Shown: positions 4,892-57,994 of the stretch, in pieces
Layout of the letters: each line of letters begins with the position of its first letter
Position numbering within the stretch: the first letter of the stretch is position 1
NCBI RefSeq assembly: GCF_900109465.1
Contig: NZ_FOAZ01000006.1
Span: forward strand, 186,001-250,000
Length of the DNA stretch: 64,000 bases
DNA from: Streptacidiphilus jiangxiensis
GTDB taxonomy: Bacteria > Actinomycetota > Actinomycetes > Streptomycetales > Streptomycetaceae
Direction: 5' to 3'
Notes under the pieces: model-generated
The model's input: only the letters and a program-made list of their open reading frames with translations
Databases searched by the model: none
Told to the model about the DNA's origin: nothing
Made by a program: the position numbers and the translations under genes

Positions 4892-4984
4892 GTCTTCGAT
4901 TCTGCGCTCCTTCCAGGCCGCCCGAGGGTGCTTCCACAAGTTGAACGCTCTTGCCGGAAAGGGGTGCTGATTGCCTCCATTCCA

Positions 4985-5036
4985 TTGACGCAACCTTGTC
5001 GGCAGTGCTTCACTCGCCCTCGCGGAGAGCGCTCTC
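4985..5036 (+). promoter_or_regulatory. promoter and LacI/CebR-type operator of the GH55 gene
   Basis: A TTGACG -35 element (4985-4990) is followed after 18 bases by a weak -10 (TTCACT, 5009-5014). Ten bases further on lies the perfect 12-bp palindrome GAGAGCGCTCTC (5025-5036), where the transcription start should be. The palindrome centre AGCGCT is that of CebR-like LacI operators (TGGGAGCGCTCCCA). The same 12-mer sits in the same position relative to the GH16 gene promoter near 24.65 kb. The repressor gene is not in this window. Confidence 0.7.
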
Positions 5037-5085
5037 TAGGCTCCGCACGTCAGGTGCCACCTCACCCGCCACTCCTGGGAGAGCA

Positions 5086-6885
5086 ATGCCCGTCGCCCCG
5101 AACCGCCGTACCGTCCTCCGCTCGTCGCTCGCCCTGGCCGCCGCACTGCCGCTGGCCGGCGCGCTCCCCTCCGCATCGGCCTCCGCCACCCCGTCGGACC
5201 GGCCGGGCGCCGCCGACCTCGGCCCCAACGTGCTGCTGTTCGACCCCTCGATGGGCGACGCGGCGATCCAGGCCCAGGTCGACTCGGTCTTCGCGACCCA
5301 GCAGTCCAACCAGTTCGGCACCGAGCGCTACGCGCTCGCCTTCCTGCCCGGCACCTACAACGTCGACATCAACGTCGGCTTCTACACCCATGTGCTCGGC
5401 CTCGGCGCGGCGCCGGACGACGTCGTCATCAACGGCCATGTCACCGTCGACGCCCAGTGGTTGGGCGGCAACGGCACGCAGAACTTCTGGCGCGCAGCCG
5501 AGAACCTGTGCATCGTCCCGCCGGACGGCCTGGAGCGCTGGGCCGTCGCCCAGGCAGGCCCGATGCGCCGCGCGCACATCAAGGGCGACATGACGCTGTG
5601 GCCGAGCCCGCCCGGCAACCGCTGGTCCAGCGGCGGGTTCCTGGCCGACAGCGTGGTGGACGGCCAGGTCGACTCCGGCTCCCAGCAGCAATGGCTCTCG
5701 CGCAACGACCGCTTCGGCTCCTGGACCGGCTCCAACTGGAACATGGTCTTCGTCGGCACCCAGGGCGCCCCCGCCCAGCACTTCCCCAACCCCGCCTGGA
5801 CCGTGGTCGACGCCACCCCGACGGTGCGCGAGAAGCCGTTCCTCACCCGCAACGCCGACGGCTCGTACCAGGTCTTCGTCCCGGCGCTGCGCGCCGACTC
5901 CGCCGGACCGACCTGGGTCTCGGGTCCCGCGGCCGGGCATGCCGTCCCACTGTCCCGGTTCCACGTCGCCCGTCCCGGCGAGAGCGCGGAGTCGATCAAC
6001 CGTGCGCTCGCGCGCGGACAGCATCTGCTGCTCACCCCGGGCGTCTACCCGCTGGCCGCCCCGATCCGGGTGCGCCGCCCCGGCACCGTCGTGCTCGGCC
6101 TCGGCCTCGCCACGCTCCAGGCCACGAACGGCAACGCACTGCTGGAGGTCGGCGACGTCGGCGGCGTCTCGGTCGCGGGCATCCTGCTGGAGGCCGCCTC
6201 GGCGGGCTCCCCGGTCCTGCTCAGCGTCGGCGAGGGCCGCAGCCGCACCCGCCACGTCGCGAACCCCACCGTCCTGTTCGACGTCTACGCCCGCATCGGC
6301 GGGGCCGTGGCGGGCGGAGCGGACGTCAGCGTCCGGATCGACAGCAACGACGTCATCTGCGACAACCTCTGGCTCTGGCGCGCCGACCACGGCAACGACG
6401 GCACGGTCGGCTGGACGGTCAACCCCGCCGACACCGGCATCGAGGTCAACGGCGACCGGGTCACCGCCTACGGCCTGGCCGTGGAGCACTACCAGAAGTA
6501 CGAGGTGTTGTGGCGGGGCGACCACGGCCGCACCTACTTCTTCCAGAACGAGCACCCCTACGACGTCCCGACCCAGTCCGCGTGGACCCACGACGGCACC
6601 CTCGGCTACGCCGCCTACAAGGTCGCCGACACCGTCACCTCCCACCAGGCCTGGGGGTTGGGCAGCTACTGCTTCTTCGACCTGAACGCGGGCATCTACA
6701 CCGACCGCGCCTACGAGGTCCCGGACACCCCCGGCGTGGTCTTCACCGACCTGATGACGGTCTGCCTCAACGGCCCGGGCGGCGGCGGGATCCTCCACTG
6801 CATCAACGCCAGCGGCGCACCGGTCCAGAACGGCTTCGGCACCTTCTACATGACCGCCTACAGCGACGGCGCCGCCACGCCCTGA
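5086..6885 (+). CDS. secreted GH55-type beta-1,3-glucanase-like protein (right-handed beta-helix)
   Basis: This 599-aa exported protein starts at the ATG at 5086, behind GGGAG. The N-terminus has a twin-arginine-like signal (RRTVL followed by a hydrophobic A/L stretch, cleavage near SASASA). The mature part reads as a beta-helix of the family often annotated as coagulation factor 5/8 or adenylyl cyclase in streptomycetes, to which the characterised GH55 exo-beta-1,3-glucanases belong. Conserved features include LGPNVLLFDPSMG, SGGFIAD-like SGGFLADSVVDG, and the Glu-rich region AVEHYQKYEVLWRGDHG...FFQNEHPYD that likely contains catalytic carboxylates. The shared operator with the GH16 laminarinase supports a role in beta-1,3-glucan breakdown. 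The exact catalytic Glu was not verified by alignment. Confidence 0.72.
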   Translation: MPVAPNRRTVLRSSLALAAALPLAGALPSASASATPSDRPGAADLGPNVLLFDPSMGDAAIQAQVDSVFATQQSNQFGTERYALAFLPGTYNVDINVGFYTHVLGLGAAPDDVVINGHVTVDAQWLGGNGTQNFWRAAENLCIVPPDGLERWAVAQAGPMRRAHIKGDMTLWPSPPGNRWSSGGFLADSVVDGQVDSGSQQQWLSRNDRFGSWTGSNWNMVFVGTQGAPAQHFPNPAWTVVDATPTVREKPFLTRNADGSYQVFVPALRADSAGPTWVSGPAAGHAVPLSRFHVARPGESAESINRALARGQHLLLTPGVYPLAAPIRVRRPGTVVLGLGLATLQATNGNALLEVGDVGGVSVAGILLEAASAGSPVLLSVGEGRSRTRHVANPTVLFDVYARIGGAVAGGADVSVRIDSNDVICDNLWLWRADHGNDGTVGWTVNPADTGIEVNGDRVTAYGLAVEHYQKYEVLWRGDHGRTYFFQNEHPYDVPTQSAWTHDGTLGYAAYKVADTVTSHQAWGLGSYCFFDLNAGIYTDRAYEVPDTPGVVFTDLMTVCLNGPGGGGILHCINASGAPVQNGFGTFYMTAYSDGAATP

Positions 6886-8958: not shown

Positions 8959-10791
8959 TCATCCCCGGGCCGGCAGGGGGCGGATCACCGTGCCGTCGTC
9001 CAGGACGGCCGTGACCGGACCGCCGCGCGCCCAGGGGGCCGACAGGACGTGATCGGCCGTCACGTCCGTGCCGGGGCCGCCGGGTGGGGTGATCCGGTGG
9101 ACCCGGCGGCTGCCCGCCGCCAGCAGGAGCGCCGGGCCGCCGCCCGACGGCGTCCACCGGACCTGGGCGACCACGTTCTGCTCGAAGCGGCTGCACGCGC
9201 GCCCGTCCGGCTCGCTGCCGGTGACGGTCGCGCCGCCGGCGCCGGGGGCGAGGAAGAAGGTGCCGGCCGAGCCGGCGCCGTCCCAGTGGTCGGCGCGGGC
9301 GCAGACCCAGGCGGCGGTACCCGCGTTGCCGGGCAGCGGCTGCTGTGCGAACTCCCAGGCGTTGACGGCCTTCACGTCGGCGCCGCGCAGCGCGGGCAAC
9401 GTGCAGGCCAGGCGCGACCAGAGCACCAGCGCCGCCGGTCCGGTGGCCTCGCGCGGGGACTGCGCCGGGCCGGCCTGGGGCGGCGGCTGGTAGGTCAGGT
9501 GGGTGGCGACGACCCGGCCCAGGTCGGTGAGCAGGAAGGCGTGGTGTTCCGCCACGCGCGACGAGGAGCGCAGCTGCAGCACCGGCCAGCTGCTGCCGCA
9601 GCCCCCCGCCGGGGGACGCGCCACGAGCGGGGTGACGCCGTCGTGCTCGGCGAGGTCGCGGGCGGGGGTGTCGGGTGTGCGCAGGTCCCGCAGCTGCAGG
9701 CTGCCGACCCAGGGGGCGATCAGGAACCGGTCGCCCGCGGCGGTGCTCCGCAGCAGGACGGCCCCGGCGGTGGTGACGTCCGCGTCGTCGTGGCGGGCCA
9801 CCTGGAGCCGCTCCGGGTCGGCCGCCGTGGGCGTGTCCGGGCGGGTGTAGCGGGCCAGGCGGGTGCCGTCGTCCAGCAGCACGACGGCGGCGCCGTCGAG
9901 GTGCCCGGCCCACAGCACGCGCGGGGTGGAGAGCGGCGGCAGCGCGTCCGTGCCGGGTTCGGCCCGGACCAGGGTGGGCGTGCACCAGCTGTCGAGGGCA
10001 CGGGCGACCAGGGAGGCGTCGTCGAGCGAGGGCCCCCGGGCGGGCCAGACGCCGAAGTCCAGCCGGGCGGTGTCCGTCCAGGCGCCCGGTCCGGCGGCGG
10101 ACGGCGGCGTCCCGGTGGCCTCGACGCAGGAGGCGTGCAGGACCGGTCCGGCGTCCGCGCCCGTCCGCAGGCCCGCGGCGGTGGCGGCGAGCGCCACGCC
10201 GACCACCACGCACAGCGCGGCGAGGACCACGACGGGACGGCGCGCCCCGGATCGAACCAGGCCGGGTCGGGCGCGGACGTAGCACGGGTCGAAGGCGGGG
10301 CCGAGCAACAGCGGCCCGGCCGGTCCGGCCCCGGCCCCCGTCTGCGCGAGCTCGGCCGCCACCGCAGCCGCCGCCGCGGTGGCGGCGACGGGCTCGCCGA
10401 CGCCTGCGGCACGCAGCGTGTCGACCGTCGCGTACTCGTCCAGCCGCTCCAACTCCAGCAGCACGAAGGCCGCCCGCTGCGCGACGGACAGGCCGCCCAG
10501 GCGCTGGTCCAGCCGCAACGCCTTCGGCTCGTCCAGTGGCGGGAACAGCCGCAGGTCGGCTCCGCGCCAGGACCACGCCTCCCATCGGCGCGGCGCGGCG
10601 CCGAGCACGGCGCGCAGCACCACCGCCCGCGCCTGCGCCGGGTCCGCCACGCCGGCCGCCCGCCGGGCCGCCCGGTGCGCCAGCAGCACCCGGCGGTGGC
10701 GGTCGATCGACGACGGGAGCATCAGGTAGGCCATGCGGGCCGTCCCGTCGTACCGCGTCGACGAGGCGGCGTCCGCCTGGAGCCGGCCCAT
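8959..10791 (-). CDS. membrane-anchored protein with sigma-factor-like N-terminus and extracytoplasmic domain
   Basis: This 610-aa protein starts at the ATG at 10791, preceded by GGAGGAG. Residues 1-150 resemble a degenerate ECF sigma factor (KALRLDQRLGGLSVAQRAAF and the following helices look like region 4 but lack a clear recognition helix). A single transmembrane segment lies at about 186-207. The large C-terminal part, about 400 residues, is predicted to be outside the cell. It contains repeated beta-strand-like segments and several Cys residues (e.g. GGCGSSWPVL, LACTLP, WVCARADHW), so a beta-propeller-like or ligand-binding domain is possible. No enzymatic motif was recognised. The gene is divergent from the NAD(P)-binding/DUF2867 gene. 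Confidence 0.65.
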   Translation of the reverse strand: MGRLQADAASSTRYDGTARMAYLMLPSSIDRHRRVLLAHRAARRAAGVADPAQARAVVLRAVLGAAPRRWEAWSWRGADLRLFPPLDEPKALRLDQRLGGLSVAQRAAFVLLELERLDEYATVDTLRAAGVGEPVAATAAAAAVAAELAQTGAGAGPAGPLLLGPAFDPCYVRARPGLVRSGARRPVVVLAALCVVVGVALAATAAGLRTGADAGPVLHASCVEATGTPPSAAGPGAWTDTARLDFGVWPARGPSLDDASLVARALDSWCTPTLVRAEPGTDALPPLSTPRVLWAGHLDGAAVVLLDDGTRLARYTRPDTPTAADPERLQVARHDDADVTTAGAVLLRSTAAGDRFLIAPWVGSLQLRDLRTPDTPARDLAEHDGVTPLVARPPAGGCGSSWPVLQLRSSSRVAEHHAFLLTDLGRVVATHLTYQPPPQAGPAQSPREATGPAALVLWSRLACTLPALRGADVKAVNAWEFAQQPLPGNAGTAAWVCARADHWDGAGSAGTFFLAPGAGGATVTGSEPDGRACSRFEQNVVAQVRWTPSGGGPALLLAAGSRRVHRITPPGGPGTDVTADHVLSAPWARGGPVTAVLDDGTVIRPLPARG

Positions 10792-11036
10792 GAGCACTCC
10801 TCCCCGCCCCGGGGGTCGTCGGCGTCCGTCCGCCGCGCCGGGGCGTCCCGGACGGCCTAACGCGAGGATCATCGGATGGTCACGCCGTGCCGCCGAATCG
10901 ATACCGCAGCGCGCCTCCGGACGGGGCCCGGACGATGCGGGATCGCTGCGGCTGGTCCGCCCGTCCCGGCGACGCGAGGTTGGGTGGGCGGCGACCGGCC
11001 CCGGTCACCGCCGTCGCAGCTGGTCGAGGTGGTGCC

Positions 11037-19686: not shown

Positions 19687-19690
<4 letters not shown>
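17210..19690 (-). CDS. ANTAR-GAF-PAS-SpoIIE family protein phosphatase
   Basis: This 826-aa regulator starts at a GTG overlapping the stop of the histidine kinase gene (GTGA). In order it has an ANTAR-like RNA-binding helical domain (~25-86: VDRATGVLMERLGCGPQEAL), a GAF domain, one or two PAS domains (including a FELFGL-type segment) and a C-terminal PP2C/SpoIIE phosphatase (VGGDWYDAVPLPNGDVLISVGDVAGHG, then LLLFTDGLIERKD). SpoIIE domains dephosphorylate STAS proteins, so this enzyme could activate a partner-switching sigma pathway such as the one at 12.9-15.6 kb; that link is inferred. Coupling to the HAMP kinase suggests that both form one signalling unit. Confidence 0.9.
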
Positions 19691-23382
<3,692 letters not shown>

Positions 23383-23666
23383 CGCCGCCACCGCCTCCCG
23401 GCCCCCGCTCGCCCGGCGGATTTCGCCGGACGGACCGCGACGGCCACTCGCGAACATCTGGGCCAGCTTAGGGGGCCACAGCACCTCCGGGACATGCCCG
23501 GCACGCCCACCCCTGGATCGCCGAGGGCCGTGCATCCCCCTCGTTCGGGGGCTGTTCGAACCCGGACCATTGCACGAGCCATCCGAATGCGTGAGAGAAA
23601 GACCACCCGCACCCCACCCACCGTGTCGATCCGCACGCACGGGGTAGACGCCCGGTCCGGGTGGGT

Positions 23667-42754: not shown

Positions 42755-43410
42755 GCCGTCCTCCGCAGGACCAGTTCGGCGCGGCGGCGCGGCAGCGGCG
42801 CGGCCGCGAGGCGGGTGAGCAGCGTCAGGTCGGTGCGGTGGCGCAGGAGCCGGACGACGGGGCGGCGGGCTCCGGTGAGCGAGAGGCAGACCAGGCCGCC
42901 GACGCGGGTGATCCGGGCCAGTTCGTCCAGGATGCCGACAGCGTCGGGGGCGCGCGGAAAAGCGGCGTCGCAGTAGGCGAGGTCGGCTGCGGCGTCCTTG
43001 ACCGGCAGCCAGTAGCCGTCGGCCACCACGCGCTCGCCCCCGCCCGAGGGTGGCTGCGCGCCGACCGCGGCCGCCGGTTCGACGACCAGGCATCGGGCAC
43101 CGGCCGCACGGAAGGCGTCGGCGCGCCACGTGTCCCGGCCGACGGCCACGACCTGACGGCTGGACAGGTCCAGCAGCCGGGCGAGTCGTCGGACCCGGTA
43201 ACCGGCGTGCAGGCGCCGGTAGGCGGGCGCGCGGACCCCGTGCCGTGCGGCGGTCGCCAGCAGTCGCACGACCGACGCCGGAACCGGAGCCGGAACCAGC
43301 ACCGCCGCCGGAGCCGGAACCGGTACCGCCGCCGGAGCGGGCTCCGAGGCCGACGCCGGAGCAGACGCCGGGCCCCGGGCCGGCTCCTCCGCGTCCGGGG
43401 CGACACTCAT
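42751..43410 (-). CDS. SAM-dependent methyltransferase-like protein
   Basis: This 219-aa protein starts at the ATG at 43410 in an ATGA overlap with the DUF3068 gene stop. After a 45-residue Ala/Pro/Glu-rich leader it resembles a small class I methyltransferase. It has a Rossmann-like strand (VVAVGRDTWRADAFRAAG), an acidic loop, GYWLPVKDAAADLAYCDAAFP and ILDELARITRVGGLVCLSL. The classical GxGxG motif is degenerate, so SAM binding is not certain. Its place within the operon supports a role in the same pathway as the downstream acyltransferase and methyltransferase. Confidence 0.68.
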   Translation of the reverse strand: MSVAPDAEEPARGPASAPASASEPAPAAVPVPAPAAVLVPAPVPASVVRLLATAARHGVRAPAYRRLHAGYRVRRLARLLDLSSRQVVAVGRDTWRADAFRAAGARCLVVEPAAAVGAQPPSGGGERVVADGYWLPVKDAAADLAYCDAAFPRAPDAVGILDELARITRVGGLVCLSLTGARRPVVRLLRHRTDLTLLTRLAAAPLPRRRAELVLRRTA

Positions 43411-44414
43411 GCGCCCTCCGTGACGGCGGGCTGCTCGCCCCCCGTCGGGCTGGGCTCCTGCGCGTCCGGCCCGGTCGAGGTGGCGCGCCGACGCAGTCCG
43501 ATACCGGCGAACAGGGCCAACAGCACGCCAACGCCCGTGAGGAGCCAGGGCACGTCCCCGCCGAGGAGCCTCAGTCCGGTCGCCTGGCCGCTCGCCTGGT
43601 TGACGAGCTGCTGCTCGGTGTCCTGGTTCGTGCGCAGGGTGACGTCGAGGGCGGTGGCGGTGCGGGTCGGCTGCCCGGGCATGCGCAGGGTGATGATCTC
43701 GTGGCTGGTCTGCGAGACGGGCGTGCCGGTCTCCTGGTCGACCAGGGTGAGCGTCTGCGGGTTCTGGTACCACTCCTCGGCCTGGACCGTCGGCGCCTTC
43801 GACGCCACACCGAGCACCCCGGGCGGCACCGAGACGGTGCCGATCCGCGTCGGCGGGACCGTCTGGACATAGGCGTTGAAGGTGTGGCCGTCGAGCTCGC
43901 GCGTGCCCACGAGCTGGGCGGGGAAGGCCTGTCCCGCCTCCGGGTCCCACAGCTGGTACTCGGAGGCGTCCGCGTTGAAGGGGAACTTGAGGTAGGCGTC
44001 GGCTCCTCGCCCGGTGTCCGCGCCGCAGCAGGCGACGTACAGGTTGGTGACGCGGTCGAAGGTCCAGCGGTCGACGGTGTAGCTGAGGGCCTGGCGCGCG
44101 TCGGTCAGGTTCTGGGTGGTGGGGGTGTCGACGCGGGTGGTGATGGTCCACACCGCCAGGTGTTCGCGCTTGCCGAGGACCGGGTCGCCCTGGATGTGCT
44201 GGGTCGCGGTGACCAGGCCGATGCCGGGCGCGCCGGTGGTGGGGTCGAGGTAGTGGCCCTGCCCGGTCGAGACGGTGGTGGAGTCGGGATCCCAGGGTGC
44301 GACACGGACGGCGGGCAGCACGGCGAAGTGCAGCACCGGACCGGCGGCGGCGAGCAGGGCGCCGGTGGCGAGCAGGACGGCGGCGCGGACTCGGTGGCTC
44401 AACGGGACCCCCAA
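43407..44414 (-). CDS. DUF3068 (PorA-type) membrane protein
   Basis: This 335-aa protein starts at a TTG at 44414; a second TTG at 44402 has a better-placed GGGGG. It has an N-terminal transmembrane segment (LLATGALLAAAGPVLHFAVL) and a C-terminal one (VPWLLTGVGVLLALFAGIGL). The extracytoplasmic domain between them contains SYTVDRWTFDRVTNL, a paired Cys (VACCGAD) and EEWYQNPQTLTLVDQETG. DUF3068 proteins occur in actinobacteria, often beside envelope-lipid genes, and are sometimes named porin PorA family. Their function is unresolved. It is the first gene of the operon and is driven from the 44.48 kb promoter. Confidence 0.85.
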   Translation of the reverse strand: MGVPLSHRVRAAVLLATGALLAAAGPVLHFAVLPAVRVAPWDPDSTTVSTGQGHYLDPTTGAPGIGLVTATQHIQGDPVLGKREHLAVWTITTRVDTPTTQNLTDARQALSYTVDRWTFDRVTNLYVACCGADTGRGADAYLKFPFNADASEYQLWDPEAGQAFPAQLVGTRELDGHTFNAYVQTVPPTRIGTVSVPPGVLGVASKAPTVQAEEWYQNPQTLTLVDQETGTPVSQTSHEIITLRMPGQPTRTATALDVTLRTNQDTEQQLVNQASGQATGLRLLGGDVPWLLTGVGVLLALFAGIGLRRRATSTGPDAQEPSPTGGEQPAVTEGA

Positions 44415-45821: not shown

Positions 45822-46664
45822 CGCCCGCGCGGCCGGCGGTCGCAGCGCGAGCACCAGCAGCGAGACCACCAGCGCGCCGAGTCGCAGGCCCAGCCGCAAC
45901 GGGTCCGCGGGCAGCGGTTCGTGGAAGATGAGGCCGCCCGCGACCAGCACCAGCGCGTTGCCGGTGATGACCTGCGCCGGCACCAGCGAGGCCGCCCGCG
46001 AACGCTGCAGCCCGATCTGCATCACCCCCAGCATCAGCACCGAGAACAGCCCGAGCAGCCACGCGTAGGGCAGCTCCGCCAGCGAGACGAGCGTGCGGCG
46101 CCCGTCCCTGGCGGCCACCGCCAGCGCCTTGGCCAGCAGCCCGCCCGCGCCGTTCAGCAGCCCGACGGCCACCCCGTACGCGGTACCGGAACGCGGTCCG
46201 CGGGGCAGCATCACCGCGCCCGCGCCCAGGCCCGCGCAGGCGCAGACCGTCAGCACGGCGGCCGGGTGCTCGCCGCGCCCCACCGGGTCCAGGTGCGGGT
46301 CGTAGCTGAGCACGAGCAGGACGGTGCTGAGCCCGAGCAGGGCGAGCATCGCCAGGTCGGCGCGGGCCGGCGTCTCCCGGTAGACCAGCGCGGACGTCGC
46401 GACCAGCACGGCCGGCCCCACGGCCAGCAGCGGCTGCGCGACGGTGATCGGCAGCAGCCCCTGCGACACGACCTGGAGCACCAACCCGGCCAGCACCAAC
46501 GCGAACCCGGCCAGCCAGGCCGGTCTGCCGAACAGCGACCGGAACAGCGCGACCGGCGCGGCGAGGCGCAACGTCGGCAGCCGGCCCAACGCCTGCTTCT
46601 CGACCAGCAGGCCGACGTTGTAACAGACGGCGGCGAGCACCGCCGCGGCGATCCCGAGGATCAC
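45645..46664 (-). CDS. DMT/EamA-like multi-pass membrane transporter
   Basis: This protein is about 339 aa, starting at a GTG that overlaps the stop of the AftD-like gene. About nine to ten hydrophobic segments (AAAVLAAVCYNVGLLVEKQA, LLPITVAQPLLAVGPAVLVA, WLLGLFSVLMLGVMQIGL) and the overall pattern fit DMT-superfamily proteins, which move small metabolites or lipid-linked sugars. The coding frame continues 177 bases into the antisense of the GT4 gene 3' end. No earlier stop exists, so the natural C-terminus is soluble and Gly/Ala-rich there. Coupling to the AftD-like gene suggests export of a donor or intermediate. Confidence 0.78.
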   Translation of the reverse strand: MILGIAAAVLAAVCYNVGLLVEKQALGRLPTLRLAAPVALFRSLFGRPAWLAGFALVLAGLVLQVVSQGLLPITVAQPLLAVGPAVLVATSALVYRETPARADLAMLALLGLSTVLLVLSYDPHLDPVGRGEHPAAVLTVCACAGLGAGAVMLPRGPRSGTAYGVAVGLLNGAGGLLAKALAVAARDGRRTLVSLAELPYAWLLGLFSVLMLGVMQIGLQRSRAASLVPAQVITGNALVLVAGGLIFHEPLPADPLRLGLRLGALVVSLLVLALRPPAARASAPLAAGAGDAPGPVQGLVDHGGEAVDGGVPAQAERAAAGRGAHGTATGGVEGESGPG

Positions 46665-49600
46665 TCGGGCACCTCCGGCGCACCCGCCTGCGAAGCGGTT
46701 CCTGACGCACCCTCCCCGGAGGTCCGCGGCTGCGTCGCCGCGTCCGGGGAGCCGGGCTGGTGCGGCACGTGGGAGAGCAGGCCGGGGACCGGTTCCGCGA
46801 GGGTGGCCGGGCCGGTGGTCGGCAGGGGCACCGTCGGGGCCTCGGTGCTGCCCGCGGACGACGGGGCGGCTGTCGACGGGGTGGCCGTCGGCGGGAGGGG
46901 GGTGGCCGGAGCGCCGCCGGGTGTCGGGCGCGCGCCCCACGGGGCGAGAGCCGCGGCGAGGGCCGTCAGTGCGCAGGCCTGCGCGGCCGGGCCGAAGGCG
47001 CCCTGGCCCGGGGTGAGGCCCTGCTCGACGGAGACCGCGGCGATGACGCCCGCCGCCGTCATCGCGGCGACGGCCACGACCGGACCGACGACGCGGGCGA
47101 GGTCGGGACGCCACCACCACAGCACGACCAGGACCAGGGCCGCACCCGCCATGGGGCCGCCGACCAGGGCCAGGACCGCCACCGCGACCAGCGGGCCGAC
47201 CGGCCAGGCCAGGCCCGTTCGCGGGCCCACCGCGTCGAGGTCTCCGCCGACCGCGGGCGCGCCCGCCCGTTCCCGTCGGGCCGCCGCGACCAGCACCACC
47301 ACAACGAGGAGCAGCAGCAGGGCACCCAGGTCCAGCGCGACCCGGTACCAGGTCTGCGGGGTGTAGTGGAGCGTGACGACGCCGGCGGCGCCCGCCGGGA
47401 TCAGGTAACCCTGCTGCCAGCCGTCGAGGGTGACGGCCTGCAGGGTCTGGCCGTTCAGCGTCGCGGTCCAGCCGGGCGCGGCGTTCTCGTGGACCTCCAG
47501 GTACGCGGCGGGGCCCGTGCCGACAGTCACCGAGCGGTCCTCCTGGCCCCAGCTCCAGGCGCTGACCGCCCGGGCGGCCGAACCCGGCGGCGTCGCGGTG
47601 CCGTCCAGCGCCGCGCGCTCGGACGCGCCGACGAGGGTGGCGTCGGTCAGGGCGAGCGCCTGGCCGGCCCCGTCACCGGGGGCGTCGAGGCGGTGGGTGC
47701 CCGCGCCGAGCGCGAGGCGGGCGCCGCCGGGCGTGCAGAGGGTGACGACGACGGGCTGCTGCGAGAGCAGCGAGCCCAGCGTGCCGGAGGCGGACGTGGG
47801 GTAGGCGTGGCCGTCGATGGACAGGTCCGGGCCCTGGCCGCACGGCACGTCGAACGGGGTCGTCGGGTCTGCGGCCTTCTGCTGGAGGTCACTCAGGGCC
47901 GGGAAGGAGGCCTTGGCCAGCCCGAGCGGCAGCGGCACCTCGGTGCCGGTGATCGGCTCGTAGGTGCTGATCCGCTGGACCGTCGGGAAGGTGACGGTGA
48001 CCTGGTCGGTGCGGAGCGGCGCGAAGGTGACCTTGCCGTCCGCGCCGACGGCCGCGGTGCGGCTGCCGTCGGGGCTGGTCAGCTGGACCGTCAGCGGTGC
48101 GGCGGCGAGGCCGCCCATGGTCTGCAGGTCGAGCTCGCTCAGGGTGCGGGCGCCCTTCCAGGAGTAGCTGAGCTGCGGGGTGGTGCCGGGGGCGGCGATC
48201 CAGCCGTCGAAGGAGGCGGCCTGGACCAGGTTGGTGGCCTGGTACTGCGGCAGGTCGGCGATGGCGGGACTGGCGACGACGCTGAGGCCGCTGCGCGGGG
48301 TGAGGCCCCGGATCAGACCGTCCAGCGCCGGGCCCGGCACCGGCATGGCGCTGAGCGTCGTGTCGAAGGTGTCGGGCGCGTCGAGGGTGAACTGGCGGGC
48401 GAGGCCGGTCTCGGCGCTCTGGGGGCCGAGCAGGCCGGTGGCGGCGACGGTGCGGTGGAAGGAGAGCGCGACGCCGCCCGCGCCGTTGGTCGGGGCGTCG
48501 TGCGCGGTGGCCAGGTAGCGGGTCACCTGCACGCCCGGGATGGACACCTCGCTGATCCCGGCGCCGAGGCCGCCGGGGACGGCGCCGGTCGCGGCGGCGA
48601 TGGTGAGGGTGAGGCTGTGCGTCGGACCGGCCGGAACGGCCAGGTCCTGGGCGGTGCCACCGGCGCCGAGCGCGTCGGTCGTGGTGCCGCGGTCGGTGCG
48701 CACGGTGAGCCGACTGATGAGCGGGCGCAGTCCGCTGTCGTCCAGCAGTTGCAGGGAGATCGTGGCGGGCAGGTCGACGCTGCCGTCGAAGTCGATGCGC
48801 AGCCACTGGCCGACGGGGCTGTTCGGGTCCCCCTCGGTCCAGGCGGTGGCGGGGTCGCCGTCGAAGGCGTTGACGGGGTCGTACTGGGGTGACTGGAGCA
48901 GCCAGGAGCCGTAGCTGGAGGCGCTCACCGAGGCGGCACCGACCAGCACGGCGGTGGTCTGATGGCCGGCCATGTCGAAGGGCGGCTGCAGTTGGCGTGG
49001 CGCCTTGCCGCCGGAGCCGTCGCCACGGTCGGACGGGTTGGTGCCGTCCGCGGTGTAGGTGTAGGAGACGTTGTCACGGATCAGGCCGAAGGAGGTGTCG
49101 GTGCGGCGCAGGCCGTCGGCCACCACCAGCGGGCTGCCCGCGGGCGCGGAGCCGCCCGTCCTGGCGCCCTGACCGGACAGCAGCACCGCGCGGCCGTCTG
49201 CGAGGCCGCCGCCGGAGCCGTCCGAGGCGCCGCTGAGTTGGAGCAGGTTCTCCGGGCCGCCGCTCAGGCGCAGCGTTCCGGTGGCGGGCAGCACGCCGAA
49301 CGGCGTCCCGGGCTGGAGCTTGGAGGAGTCCGCCTCGAAGATCTCCACGGCCCGGTAGCCGTAGTCGAGGGCGGCTACCTGCAGCGGGGTGTCGCCGCGC
49401 ACGGGGGTCGGCGGGATCACCGGCCCGAAGGAGGCGGCGAGTTGGAATCCGGACTGGAGCAGCGTCTCGCGGTAGGCGGTGGGGTCGGTGTAGTCGAACT
49501 GGTTCGGGTCGAGGTCGTGGCGCAGCACGACGTAGCGGATCCCGGCGCGGGCCAGGTAGGCGGCCAGCGAGGGCTGGTCGGTGCCGGTGGCGAAGGCCTG

Positions 49601-51196
49601 TTCCGCGGCGTCGAGGTAACGCTGCACGCCCGCACCGCCGTTGGGGACGAGGGTGCGTTCCGCCCACGAGGACTGCGCGTAGGGCTGGAAGGCGTCGTCG
49701 GTGGTGCTGCCCCAGCTGTAGTCGCCGTGCGAGGTGGCCGGCTCCAGCAGGCTGCGGCCGCCGCCCCCGTTCTCGGCGAGGAAGTCGGCGGTCTGCTTCC
49801 AGTAGTCGGGCACGGCCGTGAACGAGCCGTTCTGCAACGTGCGGGCCGTCAGGTACGGCACGGCGCAACCGAGCAGCGCGGCGGTGAGCACGAACGCGGT
49901 CGCCGGCACCAGGATCCGCCGCGGCGCGGTGAAGGCCCGGCCCAGCAGGTGGGCCAGGCCAAGAACGAGCGGCAGGGCCAGCAGCGGCTGGAACTTGTAG
50001 ACGCTGTGGAACGCCTCGCCGGGCCCGTTCAGGAGCGACTGCAGCGCGTTGTGCAGGGGGCCGCCGAGCGTGCCGCCGTAGACGGCCAGCACGGCGACGG
50101 CGCCGAAGCCGAGCGTCCAGCGCAGCCAGCGCGCCTCGGGCAGGTCACGGCGGGCGAGGCCGCCGAGCCCGAGCCCGGCGAGGGCGGCGCTGCCCGCGAC
50201 GGCCCAGCCCGTGGTGGCCAGCACCCAGCCGGCGCTGAGCGCGGGCGTGCCGAAGTCGAGGTAGTCGAGCCAGTTGCCGGTGCCCCGCAGCGCCTCGGTG
50301 GCGGCCATGGTGGAGGTGGTGGTGTGCGGGGTCTCGATGTAGGGCAGGAAGTCGAAGCCGTAGCGGCCGAGCAGCAGCAGCGGCAGCCACCACCAGGCGG
50401 TCACCAGCAGCACCGCGAGCAGCCACCGGACGAGCAACCTCCGCGTCCGGGCGGTCCACTGACGGGTCAGCAGGTAGAGCAGCGGCGCGGGCAGGACGGC
50501 CAGCACGGAGACGGCGTTGACGCCGCCCATGCACAGCACCACCAGTGCGGAGCGTCCGGCGCAGCGGAGCGGCGAGACGCCGCCGCGGGTGCCGTCGACG
50601 AGCGGCACGACCACCCACGGTAGCAGCGCCATCGGCAGCACCGCGGCCGAGGTGGAGCCGAGCAGCGCGGTCAGCGTCGGCCACAGGGCGTAGCCGAGGC
50701 CGGCGCTCAGCCGCGACGCGGTCGTGCCGACGCCGAGGCGTTCGGCCAGCCGCACCGCGCCCCAGAACGCGGCGGCGACGATCAGCGACATCCACAGCCG
50801 CTCGGCGATCCACGGCGGCACGCCGACGAACTCGACGACCCAGTAGAACGGGCCCATCGGGAAGGCGTAGCCGACGGCCTGGTCCTGCAGACCGCCGAAA
50901 CCGCCCTGGGAGCTCCAGAGGTCGGCGAGTTGGCCGAGGAACCGGCCCGGGGTGAGCACGACGTCGATCTTGGTGTCGAAGACGATCCGACCGGGGGCCT
51001 CGAGCAGCAGACCCAGCAGGGCCAGCGCCCACACGCCGAGCAGCCAACGGGTACCCGCTCGCCCCTCGGCGCGCGACCCGACGAACCCGGTGCGCAGGCG
51101 CGGCCAACTCGGTCCGCCGCGGCCGGGGTCGGCCCCCTCGCTCCGTTGCGACCCGGAGGCCACCGGGGCCTGGCTGCTCGCTTCAGCGGTACTCAC
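46661..51196 (-). CDS. AftD-like alpha-(1->3)-arabinofuranosyltransferase-domain protein (GT-C) with discoidin-like modules
   Basis: This giant membrane protein (~1511 aa) starts at the GTG at 51196 behind GAGGAGG. The N-terminal ~520 residues carry about ten to twelve transmembrane segments and the GT-C motif IVFDTKIDVVLTPGRFL (Asp74, Asp78), followed by QDQAVGYAFPMGPFYW, as in mycobacterial AftD. A long extracytoplasmic part follows, with discoidin/F5-8-like segments (YDPVNAFDGDPATAWTEGD) and beta-rich repeats. One or more C-terminal transmembrane segments close it. AftD uses decaprenyl-phospho-arabinose to branch arabinan. Streptomycetes have no classical arabinogalactan, so the acceptor and sugar are open. 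The promoter carries the cluster operator. Confidence 0.85.
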   Translation of the reverse strand: MSTAEASSQAPVASGSQRSEGADPGRGGPSWPRLRTGFVGSRAEGRAGTRWLLGVWALALLGLLLEAPGRIVFDTKIDVVLTPGRFLGQLADLWSSQGGFGGLQDQAVGYAFPMGPFYWVVEFVGVPPWIAERLWMSLIVAAAFWGAVRLAERLGVGTTASRLSAGLGYALWPTLTALLGSTSAAVLPMALLPWVVVPLVDGTRGGVSPLRCAGRSALVVLCMGGVNAVSVLAVLPAPLLYLLTRQWTARTRRLLVRWLLAVLLVTAWWWLPLLLLGRYGFDFLPYIETPHTTTSTMAATEALRGTGNWLDYLDFGTPALSAGWVLATTGWAVAGSAALAGLGLGGLARRDLPEARWLRWTLGFGAVAVLAVYGGTLGGPLHNALQSLLNGPGEAFHSVYKFQPLLALPLVLGLAHLLGRAFTAPRRILVPATAFVLTAALLGCAVPYLTARTLQNGSFTAVPDYWKQTADFLAENGGGGRSLLEPATSHGDYSWGSTTDDAFQPYAQSSWAERTLVPNGGAGVQRYLDAAEQAFATGTDQPSLAAYLARAGIRYVVLRHDLDPNQFDYTDPTAYRETLLQSGFQLAASFGPVIPPTPVRGDTPLQVAALDYGYRAVEIFEADSSKLQPGTPFGVLPATGTLRLSGGPENLLQLSGASDGSGGGLADGRAVLLSGQGARTGGSAPAGSPLVVADGLRRTDTSFGLIRDNVSYTYTADGTNPSDRGDGSGGKAPRQLQPPFDMAGHQTTAVLVGAASVSASSYGSWLLQSPQYDPVNAFDGDPATAWTEGDPNSPVGQWLRIDFDGSVDLPATISLQLLDDSGLRPLISRLTVRTDRGTTTDALGAGGTAQDLAVPAGPTHSLTLTIAAATGAVPGGLGAGISEVSIPGVQVTRYLATAHDAPTNGAGGVALSFHRTVAATGLLGPQSAETGLARQFTLDAPDTFDTTLSAMPVPGPALDGLIRGLTPRSGLSVVASPAIADLPQYQATNLVQAASFDGWIAAPGTTPQLSYSWKGARTLSELDLQTMGGLAAAPLTVQLTSPDGSRTAAVGADGKVTFAPLRTDQVTVTFPTVQRISTYEPITGTEVPLPLGLAKASFPALSDLQQKAADPTTPFDVPCGQGPDLSIDGHAYPTSASGTLGSLLSQQPVVVTLCTPGGARLALGAGTHRLDAPGDGAGQALALTDATLVGASERAALDGTATPPGSAARAVSAWSWGQEDRSVTVGTGPAAYLEVHENAAPGWTATLNGQTLQAVTLDGWQQGYLIPAGAAGVVTLHYTPQTWYRVALDLGALLLLLVVVVLVAAARRERAGAPAVGGDLDAVGPRTGLAWPVGPLVAVAVLALVGGPMAGAALVLVVLWWWRPDLARVVGPVVAVAAMTAAGVIAAVSVEQGLTPGQGAFGPAAQACALTALAAALAPWGARPTPGGAPATPLPPTATPSTAAPSSAGSTEAPTVPLPTTGPATLAEPVPGLLSHVPHQPGSPDAATQPRTSGEGASGTASQAGAPEVPE

Positions 51197-51245
51197 CGCG
51201 CGTCCTCCTCGCCGATCTTCGATCTTCGTGTCGCTCTTGCAGTTC

Positions 51246-51262
51246 TGACGGAGCGTCAATAG
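51246..51262 (-). promoter_or_regulatory. operator upstream of the AftD-like gene
   Basis: TGACG-GAG-CGTCA (51246-51258) followed by ATAG is a perfect inverted repeat of the same family as the sites at 44493 and 52545. On the minus strand TTGACG (51259 to 51254) is a -35 candidate; the -10 is weak. The site lies about 50 bases upstream of the AftD-like start and also upstream of a divergent 53-aa gene. Confidence 0.65.
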
Positions 51263-51332
51263 CCTCGAACGGCTTGCCGCCCGACCGGCCGAGCCACGGC
51301 CTGGTCGGCTCTGTGCACTGTGGGGTGATGCT

Positions 51333-51494
51333 GTGTTCGCTCGATCGACAGTCACGACGCTCGGCGCGCTGCTCGCTGTGCTGCTCGCCGCCGCCGGGTT
51401 CACCGCGGCGGCCGCCACCGGCCAGGTGAAGCCGAACGCCCCGACGCCGGAGCAGCACCACGTGCCGCTCGCGGTCTACGGGCAGGCGTCGTAG
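51333..51494 (+). CDS. small exported or membrane peptide (53 aa)
   Basis: This short gene starts at a GTG at 51333 behind GGGGTGA and ends at a TAG. The product begins FARSTVTTLGALLAVLLAAAG, a single hydrophobic segment that could be a signal peptide or anchor. It ends with a polar tail, NAPTPEQHHVPLAVYGQAS. It is divergent from the AftD-like gene across the operator at 51246, and its 3' end overlaps the convergent hydrolase gene by 19 bases. Small size makes the call tentative. Confidence 0.5.
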   Translation: MFARSTVTTLGALLAVLLAAAGFTAAAATGQVKPNAPTPEQHHVPLAVYGQAS

Positions 51495-55190: not shown

Positions 55191-56924
55191 ATGGCAGACG
55201 AACCGAACAACCCGCCGACCGCCGACTGGGCGACACCCCGGCCCACGACGCCGCGCAGTCTCGCCGACGACTACGTGACCCGTGTCGCCGCCCTGGATCC
55301 CAGCGTCTCCACGTGGCTCGGACTGGACCCGACGAACGACCGCATGCCGGACCTGACCCCGCAGGGGCTCGGCGAGGCCGCCGACCTCGCCCGTGACACG
55401 CTGCGCCGACTGGACGGTCTGGACGCCGGCGGCTGGGCGGACGACCCGGGCGAGCAGGTCTGCGCCCGGCTGCTGCGTGAGCGGCTCACGGCCGAACTCC
55501 AGTGGTACGACACGGGCGAGGACTTCCGCGCGGTGCGCAACCTGCACACCCCCGCCCAGGGCCTGCGCAGCATCCTCACCACCATGCCGCTGGCCACCGA
55601 CGAGGACTGGGTGCCCGTCCTCGGGCGGCTGCGTGGACTCCCCGAGGCCCTGGAGGGCTACCGGTCGACCCTGGTCGAGGGCGTCTCGCGCGGTCTGCTC
55701 GCCGCACCGCGCCAGGCCGAGGTGCTCACGCAGCAGCTGACGCAGTGGACCGGCGAGGACACGGGCGGCGCGGGCTGGTTCGCCGACTTCGTCCAGCCGG
55801 CGCCGCAGACACTGCGGCCGGAGCTGGACACCGCCGCCCGCGCGGCGACCGCGGCCGTGGCCTCGTTCCGCGACTGGCTGCGTGCCGACTACGCGACCGC
55901 CGCCAAGGGCACCCCGGACGCTGTGGGCCGGGAGCGCTACCTCGTGGCCGCCCGCCGCTTCACCGGCTCCGACCTGGACCTGGACGAGGCCTACGACTGG
56001 GCCTGGGAGGAGTTCCACCGCGTCTGGGCCGAGCTGGAGACCGAGGCGCAGCGAGTGCTGCCCGGCGCCGGGGTCCAGGAGGCGCGTGAACACCTGAACC
56101 GACACGGCCACACCGTGCAGGGCGCCGAGCAGATGCGCGGGTGGCTGCAGCAGCTCGTGGAGGAGGCCATCGAGGCCCTCGACGGCAGTCACTTCGACAT
56201 CCAGGGCCCGCTGCGCGGCGTCGAGACGCGGATCGCTCCGGCCGGCAGCGCCGCCGCGCCCTACTACAGCGCGCCGAGCCTGGACTTCAGCCGTCCGGGA
56301 CGCACCTGGCTGCCGCTCGCCAACGGCGACGCCCAGGAGCGCTTCCAGACCTGGCGGCTGGTCAGCACCTGGTACCACGAGGGCGTTCCCGGGCACCACC
56401 TGCAGCTGGCCTCGTGGACCGCGGCGGCCGACCAGCTGTCGCGCTACCAGGTGACCCTCGGCAAGGTCAGCGCGAACGTCGAGGGCTGGGCCCTGTACGC
56501 GGAGCGGCTGATGGACGAGCTGGGCTTCCTCACCGATCCGGGCCGCCGCCTCGGCTACCTGGGCAAGCAGATGATGCGCATCGTGCGGGTGATCATCGAC
56601 ATCGGTATGCACCTGGAGTACGTCATCCCGGCGCACTCCCCCTACCACCCGGGCGAGCGCTGGACCCCCGAGCTGGGCACGGGCTTCCTGGACGCGTACG
56701 TGGGCATGCCCGCCGCCGCGCGCGACAGCGAGATCGTCCGCTACCTCGGACTGCCCGGCCAGGCCATCGGCTACAAGCTCGGCGAGCGCGCCTGGCTGGC
56801 CGGCCGTGACGCGGCCCGGGCCCGCCTGGGCGCGGACTTCGACCTGAAGGCCTGGCACATGAAGGCCATCCGGCAGGGTTCGCTGGGTCTCGACGACCTG
56901 ACGGAGAACCTCGCCGCGCTCTGA
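55191..56924 (+). CDS. DUF885 family protein (zinc-peptidase-like)
   Basis: This 577-aa soluble protein belongs to the DUF885 family, which has a thermolysin-like fold. The key motif YHEGVPGHHLQLA (about 395) and a downstream KVSANVEGWALYAERLMDELGF segment supply the expected metal ligands and catalytic residues. No signal peptide is visible, so it acts in the cytoplasm. The substrate is unknown, and carboxypeptidase-like or hydrolase roles have been suggested. Two hairpin terminators follow the stop. Confidence 0.92.
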   Translation: MADEPNNPPTADWATPRPTTPRSLADDYVTRVAALDPSVSTWLGLDPTNDRMPDLTPQGLGEAADLARDTLRRLDGLDAGGWADDPGEQVCARLLRERLTAELQWYDTGEDFRAVRNLHTPAQGLRSILTTMPLATDEDWVPVLGRLRGLPEALEGYRSTLVEGVSRGLLAAPRQAEVLTQQLTQWTGEDTGGAGWFADFVQPAPQTLRPELDTAARAATAAVASFRDWLRADYATAAKGTPDAVGRERYLVAARRFTGSDLDLDEAYDWAWEEFHRVWAELETEAQRVLPGAGVQEAREHLNRHGHTVQGAEQMRGWLQQLVEEAIEALDGSHFDIQGPLRGVETRIAPAGSAAAPYYSAPSLDFSRPGRTWLPLANGDAQERFQTWRLVSTWYHEGVPGHHLQLASWTAAADQLSRYQVTLGKVSANVEGWALYAERLMDELGFLTDPGRRLGYLGKQMMRIVRVIIDIGMHLEYVIPAHSPYHPGERWTPELGTGFLDAYVGMPAAARDSEIVRYLGLPGQAIGYKLGERAWLAGRDAARARLGADFDLKAWHMKAIRQGSLGLDDLTENLAAL

Positions 56925-57310: not shown

Positions 57311-57493
57311 GCCCCAGGGGGGTGCGCGGGTCACCAGGGCCCGTGGCCAGCGGCAATCCGGCCGAGTGGCAGGAAGCGGCCGGCGGCTCGTTCGGCCTCT
57401 CCTCGGAGCGAATCGTTCCGCCGCTGTGGCAGGGTCCTGGCTCGGAACGTCCCGACCGTTCGGACGGTCACGGAAAGCAGCCCGGAGGACACC

Positions 57494-57994
57494 ATGGGTC
57501 ACATCTCTCGCCTGCCGCGTACGCCTCGGACCACCCGGCCGGACAGCCGGCCGCGCCCTCGCCGGCAGCTCGGCACCCGGCTGGGCACCGTCACCCTCGC
57601 CGCCGTCGCGGCGCTGTTCGCGACCGCCGTGCCAGGAGCCGCCGCCGACCCCGCGGCGGACCCCGCGCCCAACGCGCAGGGCCCCTCGGTCCTGGTGATG
57701 ACGGTCAGCCCCGGCACGGCCACCGACCCCGGTCCCGGCCGCTCGGCCGTACTCACCTGCGGGACCGAGCCCGGCGGTGACCACCCCGCCCCGGTCGAGA
57801 GCTGCGCCGCACTCCTGGCCGACGGGCTGGACTTCACCTCGCGCCCGGGCCTTCAGGTGATGTGTCCCGACCTCGTCGCGCCGGTGACGGTCACCGCGAC
57901 GGGCGTGTGGAACGGCCGCCCCGTCGACTACCAGCACACCTACGCCAACGGCTGCCTGCTGCGCCGGGCGACGGGCGTGCTCTTCGCGTTCTGA
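57494..57994 (+). CDS. Streptomyces subtilisin inhibitor (SSI) family protease inhibitor, P1 Asp
   Basis: This 166-aa secreted protein starts at the ATG at 57494 behind GGAGGA. A Tat- or Sec-type signal with an Arg-rich N-region is cleaved around Ala-51. The mature part aligns with SSI across LTCGTE...ESCAALLA, VTVTATGVWNGRPVDY and ANGCLL, with two disulfides expected (Cys89-Cys104 and Cys124-Cys154). The reactive-site loop reads CPDLVAPV where SSI has CPMVYDPV, so P1 is Asp126 and P1' is Leu127. Known members have Met, Lys or Arg at P1; an acidic P1 would point away from subtilisin and trypsin towards an acidic-residue-specific protease, or to loss of inhibition. Confidence 0.92.
   Translation: MGHISRLPRTPRTTRPDSRPRPRRQLGTRLGTVTLAAVAALFATAVPGAAADPAADPAPNAQGPSVLVMTVSPGTATDPGPGRSAVLTCGTEPGGDHPAPVESCAALLADGLDFTSRPGLQVMCPDLVAPVTVTATGVWNGRPVDYQHTYANGCLLRRATGVLFAF

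Follow-up and report, generated by a model that had tools for sequence, protein, structure and literature searches.

An SSI-family inhibitor with aspartate at P1 in Streptacidiphilus jiangxiensis and the recurrence of acidic P1 residues in its relatives

The inhibitor gene and its reactive-site loop

The window analysed here is a 64,000-nucleotide stretch of the genome of Streptacidiphilus jiangxiensis, an acidophilic soil bacterium, and carries on its forward strand, at positions 57494-57994, an open reading frame with a GC3 of 0.92 encoding a 166-residue precursor. A ribosome-binding site, GGAGG, lies on the same strand at 57484-57488, five bases 5' of the ATG. Reading the N-terminus by eye, we recognize a putative signal peptide at residues 1-51 (57494-57646), with an Arg-rich n-region, a hydrophobic core and an AAA-D cleavage point (VPGAAA-DPA), and the product is thus putatively secreted as a mature inhibitor of 115 residues (57647-57991).

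By its sequence, its cysteines and its fold, the product belongs to the SSI family. The only Pfam domain that it matches is PF00720 (SSI; MEROPS I16), with an E-value of 7.7e-22 and a score of 77.5 bits, the cut-off being 23.9, over positions 2-92 of the 92-position profile; it is encoded by the single SSI gene of the genome (93 contigs, 9.54 Mb). The closest solved structure by sequence is that of SSI itself (3SSI, E-value 2.3e-19), followed by sermetstatin/ScNPI (4hwx) and SSTI (6i0i). Cys89, Cys104, Cys124 and Cys154 are the four cysteines of the family, and are kept in 178, 178, 176 and 176 of the 178 rows of our alignment, so that both disulfides and the scaffold can be considered intact, as had been read from the sequence at the outset. 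An AlphaFold2 model built from eight sequences has low confidence (pLDDT 59.8), and a Foldseek search with this low-confidence model returned SSI structures as the sole significant matches, the best being 3ssi (E-value 9.9e-8, TM 0.68-0.70). The protein thus resembles SSI in its fold as judged by sequence, its four cysteines, the register of its loop and, putatively, its secretion. It shares family and fold with sermetstatin/ScNPI (4HWX, 4HX3) and SSTI (6I0I) as well, at 35-38% identity in the fold comparison; these two inhibitors are named as also acting on metalloproteases, and are compared here by fold and sequence alone.

The leader at 57430-57493, like the upstream regions of three other SSI genes (L005, L006 and L007), is well conserved across species, and its frame reads LAR..PT..TVTE.S.EDTM. 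It contains a perfect inverted repeat, GACCGT/ACGGTC, at 57454-57469, 5' of the SSI ATG, and a regulatory role for the leader with its repeat is possible.

The reactive-site loop, QVMCPDLVAPVT, occupies positions 57854-57889 on the forward strand, as placed by ungapped alignment with 3SSI and 177 relatives. VMCPDLVAPV lies over VMCPMVYDPV of 3SSI without a gap, which sets Asp126 (codon GAC, 57869-57871) at the position of the P1 Met of SSI and Leu127 at P1'. MAFFT and HMM alignments give the same placement of P1 in 178/178 rows, and together with the ungapped alignment they rule out a misaligned loop with P1 elsewhere; the assignment of Asp to P1 and Leu to P1' in the original prediction is therefore upheld. 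Relative to SSI, the loop has Asp for Met at P1, Leu for Val at P1', Val for Tyr at P2' and Ala for Asp at P3'. Strong inhibition of subtilisin, if observed, would not shift the P1 assignment, because every P1 mutant of SSI retains some inhibition of subtilisin, according to the citation of Kojima 1991 in PMC10004685. Those engineered mutants cover P1 replacements of different residue types within the same scaffold; the present protein differs from them in that its acidic P1 arose in nature, is conserved and recurs.

Acidic P1 residues across Streptomycetaceae

The original prediction had proposed an alignment of SSI homologues as a way of judging how common Asp is at P1. We assembled 180 distinct SSI domains of Streptomycetaceae, comprising the top matches to the family, the sequences most closely related to the window protein and the hits from 80 non-Streptomyces genomes, and found D or E at P1 in 30 of them. 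The acidic residues are distributed unevenly among the groups: 6/8 domains in Streptacidiphilus, 18/41 in g14, 5/23 in g6, 1/2 in g5 and 0/80 in g9. Group size and sedolisin counts lead us to treat g9 as Streptomyces and suggest that g14 is probably Kitasatospora; the g9 sample is biased to high-scoring paralogues, so that 0/80 is not a full census. Basic residues at P1, conversely, account for 58/80 domains in g9 versus 0/41 in g14. The premise that Met, Lys or Arg occupies P1 in known SSI-like proteins is incomplete; to these residues the survey adds Ala, Gln, His, Leu, Phe, Asn, Val, Asp and Glu.

On a tree of 178 rows, calculated with the loop columns removed, the distribution of acidic P1 requires at least 10 changes, compared to a mean of 28 and a minimum of 24 in 200 shufflings, and acidic P1 is thus clustered on the tree. 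A single origin is rejected, since constraining the acidic sequences to one clade gives an AU p of 5e-58. Asp is more frequent than Glu among the acidic residues (25 vs 5), and CPDLYLPV and CPELYLPV occur side by side in one g14 clade, an exchange of D and E that would be expected if the acidic side chain matters. The charge of the loop is redistributed, and not simply raised: acidic residues occur at P1' in 0/30 of the acidic-P1 loops versus 33/148 of the others, and at P3' in 2/30 versus 63/148. A literature search, with most subscription journals outside its reach, found no paper on a natural acidic-P1 SSI. Judged from the sequences surveyed, an acidic P1 is a recurrent natural state outside Streptomyces, commonest in the acidophilic Streptacidiphilus, and it is in this recurrence in non-Streptomyces Streptomycetaceae, and not in one strange loop as first supposed, that the value of the finding lies.

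The four closest relatives, from the three species S. anmyonensis, S. melanogenes and S. neutrinimicus (the last with two copies), all have Asp at P1, encoded by GAC; four identical loci connect the genus code g1 with the named Streptacidiphilus records of these species. That four relatives at 66-73% identity share the codon rules out a one-genome oddity or a sequencing error. The loops of the relatives read CPDIVSPV, CPDIVRPV, CPDIVRPV and CADVVQPV, compared to CPDLVAPV in the host: Asp at P1 and Val at P2' do not change across the five Streptacidiphilus orthologues and paralogues, while adjacent loop positions do. Pairwise dN/dS among these five genes is mostly about 0.3-0.4 (range 0.29-0.76), and the genes are therefore under purifying selection and constraint. 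An SSI gene is present in only 7/14 Streptacidiphilus genomes. We also noted that the P2' Val (57875-57877 in the window; L069-L072 in the relatives) takes the place of an aromatic residue in all five SSIs of the clade, nearly all other SSIs having Tyr or Trp at this position; it is a second loop change specific to the clade, and one on which the original prediction did not remark.

These patterns bear on the possibility that the protein is an ordinary broad subtilisin inhibitor, in which S1 pockets of the subtilisin type, accepting most residues, have allowed P1 to drift to Asp at modest cost, with no special target. P1 is highly variable in the SSI family, and the retention of inhibition in P1 mutants described above suggests that such a change could be borne. 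The invariance of Asp in five diverged Streptacidiphilus genes, the clustering of acidic P1 on the tree and its absence from the 80 Streptomyces domains, within the bias of that sample, all argue against drift, which we consider unlikely. One could also speculate that the protein works through a face other than the P1 loop, for instance on a metalloprotease as in sermetstatin/ScNPI and SSTI, or that it is a structural or transglutaminase-linked surface protein. The closest solved structures include these two named metalloprotease inhibitors (4hwx/4hx3 and 6i0i), and P2' has changed from Tyr or Trp to Val in the Streptacidiphilus clade, both of which are consistent with this explanation; the frame of the loop (Cys at P3, Pro at P4', Val at P5') is kept along with P1, however, which makes it very doubtful.

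Candidate protease partners

The leading idea in the original prediction was that a protein with an acidic P1 could target a protease specific for acidic residues; the absence of any classical target, or another role, was offered as well. Since the specificity of canonical inhibitors depends largely on P1 (PMC9623506), and since the acidic residue is conserved with exchange between D and E, an inhibitor directed by charge recognition of P1 Asp at a glutamyl or aspartyl endopeptidase, the host's own or that of competitors, would be conceivable. Using as query the Glu-specific protease of S. griseus, in a sequence identical to 1HPG, we recovered no streptogrisin at all from the 14 Streptacidiphilus genomes; as a positive control, the same query found 4-6 streptogrisins in each of 8/8 Streptomyces genomes. 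Elsewhere in the family, 0/30 streptogrisin loci had the Glu-specific pocket GIHSG (the His213 type of 1HPG), and the loci instead had a GLTSG/GITSG pocket of the T213 type or a remote variant. A Glu-specific streptogrisin partner was thus not found in the 14 Streptacidiphilus genomes or, judged by its pocket, among the 30 loci of the relatives. Acidic-residue-specific proteases, moreover, generally prefer Glu over Asp, which is at odds with the D:E ratio of 25:5 at P1. The idea of an acidic-residue-specific target thus finds no support in the streptogrisin content surveyed here, and we regard it as improbable; the possibility of a non-classical target stands.

A partner encoded in the same operon finds no support in the gene content of the neighbourhood, which comprises DUF885, SIR2, an opposite-strand ABC transporter and a two-component pair, with no serine protease among these neighbours of the SSI gene. 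A SIR2 gene recurs about 4 kb from the SSI gene in three relatives, and the 6 kb around the relatives' SSI genes contain neither DUF885 nor the ABC genes. The DUF885 protein (55191-56924), a putative metallohydrolase with an HEGVPGHH motif, lies directly upstream of the SSI gene on the same strand.

Sedolisins, which are acid relatives of subtilisin (PMC6278154), are abundant in the genus. Their prodomain (PF09286) occurs 6-10 times per Streptacidiphilus genome, 0-9 times in g14 and 0-1 times in the Streptomyces sample, in agreement with published averages for COG4934 of 10.6 in Streptacidiphilus, 4.7 in Kitasatospora and 1.6 in Streptomyces, from a study in which the family is called acidity-linked (PMC8236941). 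The S. jiangxiensis genome has 7 sedolisins, and in six of these, read by eye, the position of kumamolisin Asp179 is occupied five times by Asp and once by Gln. Asp at this position presumably indicates a preference for basic, and not acidic, residues at P1, and on this account the sedolisins are not favoured as a target. In two related g14 genomes (G172:C6 and G196:C20; loci L058 and L054), a sedolisin gene and the acidic-P1 SSI gene are some 18 kb apart, a proximity that could be due to chance given the 7-9 sedolisins per genome.

To relate the state of P1 to the protease content of the genomes, acidic P1 was set against streptogrisin loss, for which the raw counts showed a strong association: those without a match of at least 90 bits were 24/30 vs 16/73, and the counts within g14 were 0/13 vs 12/19 (Fisher 0.0004, with a threshold chosen post hoc). 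Sedolisin number was likewise compared with acidic P1 within g14 (Mann-Whitney 0.017). In tree-paired tests on the SSI tree, which left too few contrasts that were informative, acidic P1 was not significantly tied to either streptogrisin loss or sedolisin number, and five g6 sequences with acidic P1, which sit in genomes with normal streptogrisins, run counter to the association with loss. We therefore claim a pattern at the level of genera only, and the link to acidity rests on contrasts between genera.

An acidic P1 in acidic surroundings

Streptacidiphilus grows optimally at pH 4.5-5.5, compared to pH 6.5-8 for Streptomyces (PMC8236941). The most likely explanation for an acidic P1 that is recurrent, and conserved in the relatives, is that the acid group carries no charge in the acidic habitat of these bacteria. 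At roughly 45% probability, we infer that the window protein is a maintained, secreted canonical SSI whose acidic P1 is tuned to, or permitted by, acidic surroundings in which the P1 carboxyl is protonated. The family, the register of the loop, the Asp at P1 and its conservation, recurrence and uneven spread among taxa are shown by the sequences; canonical inhibition, gating by pH and the nature of the target are proposed. The loop would enter a serine protease's active site, with P1 Asp in the S1 pocket. At a pH of about 4.5-5.5, the carboxyl should be largely protonated, or cheaply protonated, and thus present a small neutral P1, so that the cost of burying it should largely vanish; the inhibitor would act strongly under acidic conditions and weakly at neutral pH. 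Its likely targets would be subtilisin-fold serine proteases that work in acid, from the host itself or foreign, for which sedolisins are the obvious candidates, with the reservation on their pockets made above.

A working analogue is provided by the third domain of turkey ovomucoid with Glu at P1, for which PMC3601434, reporting Qasim 1995, describes an affinity for proteinase B that spans 3-4 orders of magnitude as the pH changes, and strong pK shifts of ionisable P1 residues upon binding. Unlike SSI, ovomucoid has a Kazal scaffold and is no relative, and its P1 Glu is engineered; what it has in common with the present case is an ionisable P1, and with it strongly pH-dependent binding. Taken together with the tolerance of SSI to replacement of P1, this pH dependence makes canonical inhibition in acid, with a pocket that takes a small neutral P1, the simplest mechanism.

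One could go further and imagine a natural class of pH-gated SSIs, in which acidic P1 residues evolved repeatedly in acid-living Streptomycetaceae, and whose members would inhibit sedolisins or other acid subtilases under acidic conditions and dissociate at neutral pH. This wider proposal is quite unlikely on present evidence; if true, it would to our knowledge, from a non-exhaustive search, constitute the first group of proteinaceous inhibitors for bacterial acid subtilases. With an acidic P1 that evolved naturally and repeatedly within a single scaffold, the use of P1 ionisation as a pH switch becomes directly testable. The same observation draws attention to how the numerous sedolisins of acidophilic actinomycetes are regulated, an unexplored subject, and it offers naturally occurring scaffolds for inhibitors that are to work in acid.

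Several other genes in the window deserve mention. Two coding regions with high GC3, at 4951-6882 (644 residues) and 8962-10872 (637 residues), have no Pfam match, and a hybrid histidine kinase with at least four serial HAMP domains, together with GAF and receiver domains, is encoded at 19690-23640. An AftD-type arabinofuranosyltransferase of 1585 residues lies at 46661-51418 and a protein of the PF11271 'Porin PorA' family at 43410-44414, both families being best known from arabinan/mycolate bacteria.
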